Part shown: positions 2,214-5,200 of the stretch, one piece after another
Layout: each line of letters opens with the position of its first letter
Position numbering within the stretch: the stretch's first letter is position 1
Assembly: GCA_003151795.1 (NCBI GenBank)
Contig: PLYL01000014.1
Span: 1-35,347 of the forward strand
Source of the DNA: Candidatus Yanofskyibacteriota bacterium
Lineage (GTDB): Bacteria > Patescibacteriota > Minisyncoccia > 2-02-FULL-40-12 > GWA2-44-9
Direction of reading: 5' to 3'
Length of the DNA stretch: 35,347 nucleotides
Notes under the pieces: model-generated
Told to the model about the DNA's origin: nothing
Seen by the model: the letters and a program-made list of their open reading frames with translations, nothing else
Database searches by the model: none
Program-made: the position numbers and the translations under genes

Positions 2214-2435
2214 ATGCCTAAAAAGTTCCTAACTGTTAACGATGTCGCCAGATTGATCGGTGTTAGCCCCTTGACGGTTCGCAACTGGGATCAGAAAGGC
2301 AAGCTCCGGGCCTATCGCAACCCTGTGAATAACTACCGGATGTATAAAATCGAAGAAGTTGAAGCCATCCTTAAAAAAATAGAACACAGCAAAGATGGCT
2401 ATTCCCCGGTGAAGGTCAATATAGAATCGGAGTAA
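2214..2435 (+). CDS. MerR/excisionase-type helix-turn-helix DNA-binding protein
   Basis: MPKKFLTVNDVARLIGVSPLTVRNWDQKGKLRAYRNPVNNYRMYKIEEVEAIL, classic MerR-type HTH_17 pattern. Confidence 0.85.
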   Translation: MPKKFLTVNDVARLIGVSPLTVRNWDQKGKLRAYRNPVNNYRMYKIEEVEAILKKIEHSKDGYSPVKVNIESE

Positions 2436-2447
2436 TTATTTACCACA

Positions 2448-2484
2448 GAAACTAAAAATCGCCAATAAGGCGATTTTTAGTTTC
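2448..2484. terminator. Strong hairpin after MerR-like gene
   Basis: GAAACTAAAAATCGCC-aataa-GGCGATTTTTAGTTTC, 16-bp perfect stem. Confidence 0.6.
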
Positions 2485-2493
2485 GCGGGCTTG

Positions 2494-2528
2494 CCCGCCT
2501 AAGTTTTCTGAAAGAAAATTTTGGCGGG
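2494..2528. repeat. Palindromic element, family D copy 2, abutting the tRNA-Trp 3' end
   Basis: CCCGCCTAAGTTTTCTGAAAGAAAATTTTGGCGGG. Confidence 0.7.
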
Positions 2529-2595
2529 GGCACTAGGAGTTGCACCTAGGACGTCCGTTTTGGAGACGGAAATTTTACTGCTAAACTATGCCCCC
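2522..2595 (-). tRNA. tRNA-Trp (CCA), CCA end encoded
   Basis: Acceptor GGGGGCA/TGCCCCC, anticodon loop CTCCAAA, T stem CTAGG/CCTAG, 3' GCCA encoded. Confidence 0.88.
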
Positions 2596-2604
2596 TCCGG
2601 CCAG

Positions 2605-2662
2605 CCGGGCAGTGAAGTCCGAGACTTCATCCGGCGAAGCCGCTCGGACTTCTACTACCCGG
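2605..2662. repeat. Structured repeat, family E copy 1
   Basis: CCGGGCAGTGAAGTCCGAG...CTCGGACTTCTACTACCCGG; related to 28341-28407. Confidence 0.7.
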
Positions 2663-2819
2663 TCATGCGCGCCTCTTTGTGCGGGGTTCTCTTTTTGCAT
2701 TTTTTGCAAAATTTCTTCAACTCAATCTTCCGCTCGACCTTCTTTTTATTCTTACTGGTGTAATAGTTCGCGCTCTTGCAAACCGTACACCGCAACCGCA
2801 ACAGATTTGGCTGTGGCAT
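2655..2819 (-). CDS. rpmG: 50S ribosomal protein L33
   Basis: MPQPNLLRLRCTVCKSANYYTSKNKKKVERKIELKKFCKKCKKRTPHKEARMTG with CxxC zinc motifs. Confidence 0.9.
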   Translation of the reverse strand: MPQPNLLRLRCTVCKSANYYTSKNKKKVERKIELKKFCKKCKKRTPHKEARMTG

Positions 2820-2907
2820 AAATTGTATTGAACCACGTAATAATTTTAGCACTTAACTATTTAAATACTCGTGAATATTACGCAATTATTCATTAATTAC
2901 TAACCTT

Positions 2908-2964
2908 GTCCCGCACATAACTTCCGAAATATCTGTCCGGAACGTCGGAAGTTATGTGCGGGAC
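2908..2964. repeat. Palindromic element, family C copy 1
   Basis: GTCCCGCACATAACTTCCGA-17 nt-TCGGAAGTTATGTGCGGGAC; 20-bp perfect arms. Confidence 0.85.
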
Positions 2965-2969
2965 CTTGA

Positions 2970-3040
2970 GCCGACGGTGAGAATTGAACTCACGACCTAT
3001 TCCTTACCATGGAATTGCTCTACCGCTGAGCTACGTCGGC
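2970..3040 (-). tRNA. tRNA-Thr (GGU)
   Basis: GCCGACG...CGTCGGC acceptor, TAGCTCAGCGGTAGAG D arm, anticodon loop ATGGTAA, T arm GAGTTCAATTCTC. Confidence 0.9.
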
Positions 3041-3106
3041 GCACACTGGTGCTCCCCGCCCGTACCGAATGGTACGTTCGGACGGGTACCACTGAGCTAC
3101 AACGGC
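3041..3106 (-). pseudogene. Truncated tRNA-like sequence (5' half plus imperfect hairpin)
   Basis: Minus strand GCCGTTGTAGCTCAGTGGTA matches a tRNA 5' half; it continues as CCCGTCCGAACGTACC-ATTC-GGTACGGGCGGG with no matching 3' acceptor strand. Confidence 0.5.
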
Positions 3107-3128
3107 TTACTTTACAAAGAACTTCTGT

Positions 3129-3211
3129 GGGCAGGGAGGGATTTGCACCCCCGAAGGCACAAGGCCGGTTGGTTTACAGCCAACCCGGTTTGACTACTTC
3201 CGTACCTGCCC
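3129..3211 (-). tRNA. tRNA-Tyr (GUA)
   Basis: GGGCAGG...CCTGCCC acceptor, anticodon loop CTGTAAA, class II variable arm, T arm GGGGTGCAAATCCC. Confidence 0.9.
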
Positions 3212-3215
3212 AAGA

Positions 3216-4001
3216 TTAACTAAACTCCCATTCTTCTATATATTCAGAAAATACACTCTGTAGTTTAGTATATTCTGGCTTTAAAATCAATGCTAATTTT
3301 TTGTCAGAATAGATCTTTCTAAACGCCTTATCTCGCCTCGAGGAATAATCAGAAAGGAAATTCTTTATTTCTACATACAAGCCATAGTCTGGCAGATAGA
3401 AATCTGGGGTATATTTCTGAAATTTAAGGTCAAATGCTTCAGGTTGGAATACCCACTTAATTTTAAGAAGGTTAAGAATTCTAGCAAAATTAGCTTCCCA
3501 TCTACTAAAGAAATAGATACTCAAATCAATATCAGGCCTAATGCCGGATTTAGCTCTTGCGGCTTTAGGGGATGTCGGCCTACCACCAATGTCATTTATT
3601 GAGCACCTGACCGAACAATATTTATGATCTTGCCAACGAGGGGTAAGGAACTCTTTATCGCAGTTTAGACATCTCTTAACTAACCTTGGAACAATAATCT
3701 TTCCCCTCGCAGTATAGTGATAAGGACTTCTTTTTATGGATTCCGAAATTTTTAATTTTGTTTCTATGCTTTTGGGGCCTCGGGCTAAATTGTTATAAAT
3801 TGCGGAACAATGCCGAGAACAAAATTTTTTAGGACTAGAGTTCTTTTGTGGTATAAAGATATTGTTACAACCGGGCCTGAAGCATGTTTTATTTTCGATT
3901 TTAATTAATAGGGAATCAAAACGGCCAGCTTGCCAGGCCTTTTTCATTTTTTCCGATTGCGTCTTTCTATAATTCCTGGAGTCGTAAAATGAGTACCTCA
4001 T
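3216..4001 (-). CDS. Putative homing endonuclease: zinc-finger-like CxxC motifs, NUMOD3-like motif, PD-(D/E)xK nuclease motif
   Basis: From MRYSFYDSRN: CFRPGCNN...FCSRHCSAIY, CLNCDKEF...YCSVRCS, IETKLKISESIKRSP (NUMOD3-like), YTPDFYLPDYGLYVEIKNF (PD...ExK). The ORF-track start at 4064 lies inside tRNA-Thr. Confidence 0.65.
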   Translation of the reverse strand: MRYSFYDSRNYRKTQSEKMKKAWQAGRFDSLLIKIENKTCFRPGCNNIFIPQKNSSPKKFCSRHCSAIYNNLARGPKSIETKLKISESIKRSPYHYTARGKIIVPRLVKRCLNCDKEFLTPRWQDHKYCSVRCSINDIGGRPTSPKAARAKSGIRPDIDLSIYFFSRWEANFARILNLLKIKWVFQPEAFDLKFQKYTPDFYLPDYGLYVEIKNFLSDYSSRRDKAFRKIYSDKKLALILKPEYTKLQSVFSEYIEEWEFS

Positions 4002-4007
4002 AAAGGA

Positions 4008-4078
4008 GCCAGGGAGAGGACTTGAACCTCCAACCTGAGCATTACAAATGCCCTGCTCTACCATTGAGCTACCCTGGC
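4008..4078 (-). tRNA. tRNA-Thr (UGU)
   Basis: GCCAGGG...CCCTGGC acceptor, anticodon loop TTTGTAA, T arm GAGGTTCAAGTCCTC. Confidence 0.9.
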
Positions 4079-4123
4079 GTTTCTTAATATTATCAAAGAA
4101 TCTTTTAGTTTAAAATGTAGAAT

Positions 4124-4738
4124 TTATATTGTTGTCTCTATCTTCTTTAATAATCTGGAATATTTACGGGCCAGAGTGATGTTGTCAGGACCAAAGCCTA
4201 ATCCGGCTTCGTAGGCCTCCTTGGCGTCCGGAATATTATCCATTTTCAAATACAGATCACCTAACGTTTCGTACAAACCGGCGTTCTTGGGGTCTTGGGC
4301 AATCTCAATGATAAGTTGCTGTTCCTGGCCCTTTAAATCTTCCGGTGGCGGTTCGGCCACTATCGCCATATGTTCTGGCACCGCGACTTCGGTTGAAGTT
4401 TCTGGCTGGGCAGATGCGGTGTGCTCCAAATGGTTATTAAGATGGGTGTGGCGGACTTTCTGGATTAAACGGGCCGAAGCGTGGTCTATCTTTAAGAATG
4501 CCAGCCGCATGCGTCGGAGACCCTTTTCAAGCTCCTGGAGACTCGTCTGGCGGTACTGGTGCCACGGAATTCGGCTGAACCACGAGATTAATTCTGGGAA
4601 AAAATCCTCAAATATATTATCACTGACCTCATGAGCCTCTGGATAAAGCTTCCGGAGATACGACATCTTCCGGCGGACAATAACGGCCATGCCGACAAGC
4701 GACAAACCAATTAGAATAAGCGGAATGGTGATGAACAT
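4124..4738 (-). CDS. N-terminal TM protein with C-terminal TPR repeats
   Basis: MFITIPLILIGLSLVGMAVIV TM; NAGLYETLGDLYLKMDNIPDAKEAYEAGLGFGPDN TPR-like. Confidence 0.7.
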   Translation of the reverse strand: MFITIPLILIGLSLVGMAVIVRRKMSYLRKLYPEAHEVSDNIFEDFFPELISWFSRIPWHQYRQTSLQELEKGLRRMRLAFLKIDHASARLIQKVRHTHLNNHLEHTASAQPETSTEVAVPEHMAIVAEPPPEDLKGQEQQLIIEIAQDPKNAGLYETLGDLYLKMDNIPDAKEAYEAGLGFGPDNITLARKYSRLLKKIETTI

Positions 4739-4744
4739 GCGAGA

Positions 4745-5200
4745 TTAGATCTGAAATACCTCGAATCGGCTAATTTGGATGTTCTCACCCAATTTGGCGA
4801 TATGCGAGGTAATAAGGTCATGAATAGTCTGCTCGGGATTTTTGATGAACATTTGTTCCATAAGCTCCTCGACGTTCTGGGGCTTCATGGCGGTGATATG
4901 GAGAGCCAGGTCATGGGCCAAAGCCTGAAAGACCTCACCCCGACTCACAAAGTCAGTCTCACAGCGAAGCTCAAGCATGCAACCGGAAAGCTTGTTATTG
5001 TGGATATAAGCATCAACAAGACCGGCTTTTAGTTCGCGTCCCGCCTTTTTGGCGGCAATATCACCGCCTCGCGACGCAAGCAATTCCCGGGTCTTATCAA
5101 TATCGCCGCCGGCTTCGATCAAAGCCTTTTTGATGTCCGCGACCGACAAGCCGGTCTCGTCCCGCAGTGATTTAATCTGGTCGATAGAAATGTCTGCCAT
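4745..5200 (-). CDS. tsf: Elongation factor Ts (short)
   Basis: IKSLRDETGLSVADIKKALIEAGGDIDKTRELL...LRCETDFVSRGEVFQALAHDLALHI. Confidence 0.93.
   Translation of the reverse strand: MADISIDQIKSLRDETGLSVADIKKALIEAGGDIDKTRELLASRGGDIAAKKAGRELKAGLVDAYIHNNKLSGCMLELRCETDFVSRGEVFQALAHDLALHITAMKPQNVEELMEQMFIKNPEQTIHDLITSHIAKLGENIQISRFEVFQI

Follow-up and report, generated by a model that had tools for sequence, protein, structure and literature searches.

A probable free-standing homing endonuclease gene behind tRNA-Thr in a Candidatus Yanofskyibacteriota genome

The closest precedent for the gene described here is SegB of phage T4, which is a GIY-YIG nuclease. SegB (F-SegB) of phages T4 and T6 is encoded, like the present protein, by a free-standing nuclease gene lodged among tRNA genes. 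I-Ssp6803I, an endonuclease of a cyanobacterial tRNA-fMet group I intron, targets a tRNA gene and belongs to the PD-(D/E)xK homing class, as is predicted for our protein. Homologues of SegB are over-represented near tRNAs, whatever the isotype (PMC13096335), and PD-(D/E)xK is a listed class of homing endonuclease (PMC3943268). Work on homing nucleases in CPR bacteria has dealt with rRNA introns, and cleavage has been demonstrated for I-ShaI (PMC11270868); the main text of that paper does not mention tRNA or free-standing nucleases. I-ShaI comes from the same bacterial radiation as the present gene and is a LAGLIDADG enzyme, intron-encoded in rRNA genes. Free-standing homing genes near phage tRNAs, the PD-(D/E)xK homing class and the rRNA-intron nucleases of CPR bacteria are already known; a literature search that covered few subscription journals returned no paper on tRNA-addressed zinc-finger homing genes in these bacteria.

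The gene lies on a contig of a Candidatus Yanofskyibacteriota bacterium (assembly GCA_003151795.1, PLYL01000014.1), of which we analysed a stretch of 35,347 nucleotides, referred to as the window. The host genome measures 766 kb, is 99.6% complete and holds a single copy of the nuclease gene. The initial annotation had read this ORF as a free-standing, tRNA-targeting homing nuclease. Its domains, its position at tRNA-Thr, a swap of nuclease domains among relatives and empty sites in related genomes support that reading, and we consider it very probable, from sequence comparison and modelling, that the ORF encodes a free-standing homing endonuclease which targets tRNA-Thr and belongs to a modular family; the enzyme would cleave DNA and home. 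The features of the locus, in the direction of transcription, are as follows.

4124..4738, minus strand: gene for a TPR-containing protein, the conserved upstream neighbour, used as landmark for orthologous sites
4005..4078, minus strand: tRNA-Thr(UGU), the anchor gene; the ORF begins 3 nt past its 3' end (ARAGORN)
3216..4001, minus strand: putative homing endonuclease gene, 261 aa, with zinc finger 1, NUMOD3-like motif, zinc finger 2 and T7-EndoI-like PD-(D/E)xK domain
3774..4001, minus strand: predicted N-terminal targeting module, aa 1-76, with the pattern FYxSxxYxxxQSxxxKxxW..G.FD and a Cys4 finger; common to HNH-type relatives at tRNA-Thr
3728..3776, minus strand: NUMOD3-like segment, about aa 76-91, GPKSIETKLKISESIK (Pfam and alignment)
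3603..3671, minus strand: second Cys4 zinc finger, C111/C114...C129/C133, conserved in homologues
3219..3581, minus strand: predicted T7-EndoI-like PD-(D/E)xK catalytic domain, aa 141-261 (profiles, alignment and model)
3127..3211, minus strand: tRNA-Tyr(GUA), the downstream border, 4 nt past the stop codon (ARAGORN)

The ORF (4001..3216, minus strand) encodes 261 amino acids, with an ATG at 4001 and a TAA ending at 3216. The open frame runs on upstream through tRNA-Thr (3216-4064). The start at 4001, which had been proposed at the outset, is confirmed by the alignment, in which position 4001 corresponds to the first residue of every full-length homologue. Both flanking tRNA genes are complete according to ARAGORN, and by its ends the ORF occupies the gap between tRNA-Thr(UGU) and tRNA-Tyr with 3 nt and 4 nt left over, the first becoming 5 nt if the Rfam tRNA end (4007) is used. 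The gap-filling arrangement was thus correctly described; the spacings of 7 and 5 nt that had been given for it were not exact, which is a trivial difference. The ORF is AT-rich, as had also been observed, with a G+C of 36.1%, the window as a whole having 46.7%; just 0.4% of window stretches of the same length are lower, and the relatives of the ORF are also low in G+C (32-37%). Its gene neighbours are tRNAs, rpmG, the TPR gene and tsf. No group I or group II intron was found by Rfam in 2400-4800, and the ORF is not embedded in a self-splicing element in the manner of intron- or intein-encoded nucleases.

The C-terminal part of the protein is strongly supported as a T7-endonuclease-I-like PD-(D/E)xK domain that keeps all four catalytic residues and would be expected to cleave DNA. 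A nuclease core of this class, TPDFYLPDYGLYVEIK, had been picked out by the initial annotation, and the catalytic residues, the PDB profile and Foldseek agree on it. The predicted active site (E169, D200, E211 and K213) is invariant across 38 sequences; the E, D and E-x-K residues have the required order and spacing and align to YTPDF...VETK of T7 endonuclease I. Pfam, NCBIfam and single-sequence PDB searches with the window protein alone gave no significant family, and the domain assignment depended on profiles of relatives, the single protein being insufficient. PHROG 9019 (Holliday junction resolvase/endonuclease) matches the C-terminal 120 residues at 5e-15, and other phage endonucleases match as well. 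A profile of six relatives matched T7 endonuclease I (7.6e-5) and Bax1 (1.9e-4) in the PDB, and Pfam Phage_endo_I was found in four of the six family members (best 1e-5), with the window protein alone below the cut-off.

An AF2 model of the domain alone, built from 38 sequences, reached a pLDDT of 88.6; the full-length AF2 model, built from two sequences, was uninformative (pLDDT 36). The top Foldseek match of the domain model was T7 endonuclease I on a Holliday junction (2pfj, E 0.019, with low TM-scores). Every informative match in these profile and structure comparisons was to a nuclease. A GIY-YIG match to the window protein was found in neither Pfam, PHROG nor the PDB profile, which sets it outside the SegB family. 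T7 endonuclease I, a Holliday junction resolvase, belongs to the same catalytic domain family and has matching E-D-ExK residues. It is structure-specific and has no zinc fingers, whereas the domain of the ORF is fused to DNA-binding modules and sits at one locus.

These DNA-binding modules, zinc fingers and a NUMOD motif, are of the homing type. Two Cys4 modules, comprising eight cysteines, flank the NUMOD3-like motif. The first is formed by C40/C45...C61/C65 and is conserved in homologues. The conserved cysteine pairs had been noted before, as CxxC/CxxxC; the first pair is in fact Cx4C. The NUMOD3-like segment that had been suggested is likewise present, and Pfam NUMOD3 was matched in four of six family members (best E 6.7e-7); the window protein itself falls below threshold, so that the support comes from the family. 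PHROG 1271 (HNH endonuclease) matches the N-terminal half at 9e-12.

The N-terminal part (72 positions) was used in a protein-only search of 384 genomes of the class, of the order and of public genomes, genomic context being left out of account. Ten members with the full N-terminal module were found (the window protein, L002-L005 and L010-L014), one of them, L005, from Ca. Harrisonbacteria in the public genomes. In every one of the ten the gene stands 0-70 nt downstream of a tRNA-Thr, and the carriers belong to different families of the class. The adjoining tRNA-Thr is UGU in nine and CGU in one, and unread bases break up the tRNA next to L014. In most members the ATG is within 0-3 nt of the tRNA-Thr 3' end. 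The nearest full-length relatives (about 50% identity) are outside the family of the window genome, and when an N-terminal profile was run across the phylum, no full-length member turned up beyond the class.

The module at this address is joined to different nucleases. It is followed by PD-(D/E)xK in six of the ten members (one of them broken) and by HNH in three (L002-L004); the remaining one is truncated. The window protein and L003 share 46% identity in their N-termini (E 4e-18) and no meaningful similarity in their C-termini, that of L003 being HNH. The presence of two unrelated nucleases at one address points to the N-terminal part as a candidate address-reading module. In genome G038 two HNH-type genes stand in tandem (L004 862-2163), one behind tRNA-Thr(UGU) and the next behind tRNA-Thr(CGU), so that tRNA-Thr sites have been used more than once in a single cluster.

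The locus therefore differs from both of its nearest counterparts. SegB is phage-borne, whereas the ORF is chromosomal in a bacterium, combines zinc fingers with a T7-EndoI-like nuclease and belongs to a family tied to tRNA-Thr. I-Ssp6803I is intron-encoded, whereas no intron was found here, and the zinc-finger/NUMOD3 module and the T7-EndoI-type domain of the ORF are different from it.

The weaker zinc-finger matches of the N-terminal searches belong to a different protein family, in one member of which (L007) the homing-endonuclease-associated repeat PF18780 was detected. A tRNA-Pro gene is in the neighbourhood of all 15 members examined. Most of these genes, whichever way they point, have one end no more than about 70 nt from the tRNA-Pro 3' end; the association is looser for L021 and L137. 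Three genomes have the gene between tRNA-Pro and tRNA-Ala, and in two of these the gap is closely filled. No tRNA-Pro-type relative was found in the genome of the window. Both families are modest in size, 10 members at tRNA-Thr and 15 at tRNA-Pro, and many of the genomes are draft assemblies.

The catalytic domain is also found in other mobile elements. Three genomes of the class have homologues of it (E ~1e-21) inside DnaE open frames 1122-1539 aa long (L145-L147), where the ends of the DnaE insert are intein-like, with C..GDT on one side and ...FVVHNS on the other. In these DnaE (DNA polymerase III alpha) inteins the homologous nuclease domain is the mobile part of another selfish element, which may be taken as an independent sign of a homing role for the domain. 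The nuclease domain of the inteins is part of a protein-splicing element that interrupts an essential gene, whereas the ORF is free-standing. All three inteins also carry a zinc-ribbon-like Cys motif. A scan of viral contigs with the single protein found nothing, whereas an alignment query found many relatives of the domain, some of which lie between tRNA genes in phage contigs (L078, L118 and L135).

It is very improbable that the ORF is a defence nuclease, that is, a restriction-like PD-(D/E)xK enzyme in a tRNA-flanking genomic island. The fold would suit such a role: AbaSI and PvuRts1I, which are modification-dependent restriction enzymes, are among the Foldseek matches of the domain model, and tRNA 3' ends are common island sites. 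However, the gene stands alone. No methyltransferase or specificity subunit of a restriction-modification system was found among the adjacent ORFs, and no integrase or island was seen among the neighbouring genes. The replacement of the catalytic domain by HNH at the same site, and the use of the domain in inteins, also argue against defence and are consistent with a homing endonuclease.

The distribution of the gene is patchy. It is missing from all three congeners and from 27 of the 28 family genomes searched, and is therefore far from fixed in relatives of the host. With the TPR gene as landmark, the same gene order is found in congeners G002 and G003, in which the Thr-Tyr gap is empty (49 and 28 nt), so the empty site sought in sister genomes exists. 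The insertion site is fixed, with occupied and empty alleles in related genomes. The spacers of G002 and G003 are not alignable to that of the window, so neither an exact nor an ancestral insertion point can be read from them. Decayed copies occur among the relatives: one relative (L010/L025) contains an internal stop and a frame break, and L012 is truncated, as expected for mobile homing genes. The tRNA genes of the cluster also differ strongly between congeners, and the sequences alone would therefore fit both vertical inheritance with repeated loss and recent transfer.

Two further explanations have to be weighed against this distribution. A former homing endonuclease that has become domesticated or inactive, and is now simply inherited, is improbable; the single genomic copy, the lack of identical copies elsewhere and the broken relatives would fit it, but the reading frame is unbroken, no catalytic or zinc-binding residue has been lost, and none of the sister genomes searched carries the gene. 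Least probable of all is a host protein, co-transcribed with the tRNA, whose substrate would be tRNA or Holliday junctions (a resolvase). This is suggested by the PHROG label of Holliday junction resolvase and by the fusion to the tRNA transcript; the HNH version, however, is unrelated to resolvases, and a gene absent from 27 of 28 family genomes does not have a core function.

Other nuclease genes occupy this tRNA cluster in relatives. Seven of 25 inspected orthologous gaps are filled, by the window gene, by five LAGLIDADG genes and by one zinc-finger HNH gene; the five LAGLIDADG genes overlap tRNA-Tyr with their ends. The next gap contains a GIY-YIG gene in G002 and, judging from translated sequence, also in others. 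About nine of 15 free-standing LAGLIDADG loci examined in the order touch or overlap a tRNA gene. In L173 the tRNA next to a LAGLIDADG gene was called as Stop(tta); this call was discarded, as the tRNA is probably a misnumbered Lys(UUU).

The tRNA genes of the cluster (2522-4078) show unusually fast replacement. In the window tRNA-Thr(UGU), tRNA-Tyr and tRNA-Trp are 64-69% identical to those of G002 and G003, Thr(GGU) differs less, and the neighbouring rpmG protein is nearly unchanged relative to the congeners. Local replacement of only the two tRNAs that flank the insert was considered and rejected, as Thr(UGU), Tyr and Trp all differ.

A tRNA-like remnant in the cluster had been cited as a record of breakage and repair. 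The remnant is real (3048-3106, minus strand) and sits in the next gap, not in that of the ORF. It is a 5' fragment of tRNA-Thr(GGU) with nearly the sequence of the G002 gene, directly before an intact but different tRNA-Thr(GGU). Its D-loop contains a 32-nt palindrome, CCCGTCCGAACG...CGGGCGGG (3055-3086), which is a dispersed hairpin repeat of 27-36 bp (L148-L157), with about ten copies spread over three genomes of the genus and a single copy in another genus; two of the copies are at the identical tRNA D-loop position. Damage by the enzyme of the ORF was rejected as its origin, since a piece of tRNA-Thr(GGU) that carries a palindromic repeat found across the genus records a different event. 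The same arrangement recurs in a fragment of tRNA-Thr in G001 (L029 near 2115-2190), behind which come a GIY-YIG gene and an intact tRNA-Thr(UGU).

Further elements were observed at these tRNA genes. In congener G001 a probable group I intron that contains no ORF splits tRNA-Tyr (L029 2539-2740; Rfam score 47.1 bits, slightly below the gathering score of 50, with E 3.8e-11), and L047 is possibly a similar case. In the window, a near-perfect inverted repeat, gtcccgcacataacttccgaaat...cggaagttatgtgcgggac (2898-2967), lies beside the tRNA-Thr(GGU) 3' end and is perhaps a terminator or a small mobile hairpin.

For the homing endonuclease we infer the following course of DNA cleavage, target choice, repair-driven spread and message release. 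The N-terminal zinc-finger/NUMOD3 module would recognise the tRNA-Thr gene and its 3' flank, and the C-terminal PD-(D/E)xK domain would cut the uninterrupted flank in cells without the gene. Repair of the break from the donor copy would insert the gene directly behind the tRNA, which would keep the tRNA whole and interrupt the cut site; as the tRNA is kept whole, insertion would cost the host little. The 0-3 nt spacing in most copies suggests that tRNA and mRNA may share one transcript, from which processing of the tRNA 3' end would free an essentially leaderless message.

A wider proposal, which we regard as speculative and on balance doubtful, is that tRNA genes in these reduced genomes may serve as docking sites for modular homing elements. 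It would combine a zinc-finger family for each tRNA (Thr or Pro), an exchangeable nuclease, a leaderless message released by tRNA processing and driven tRNA replacement. Such homing-driven replacement, if true, would explain the differences between the cluster tRNAs of the congeners.

The two families are a natural set of site-specific nucleases with exchanged targeting and cutting modules, addressed to tRNA-Thr and tRNA-Pro, and the exchanged modules make modular target recognition by homing enzymes directly testable. They extend the habitat of selfish nucleases in ultra-small bacteria beyond rRNA introns to tRNA 3' flanks. Homing genes at tRNAs suggest a force behind the turnover of tRNA genes in ultra-small bacteria.
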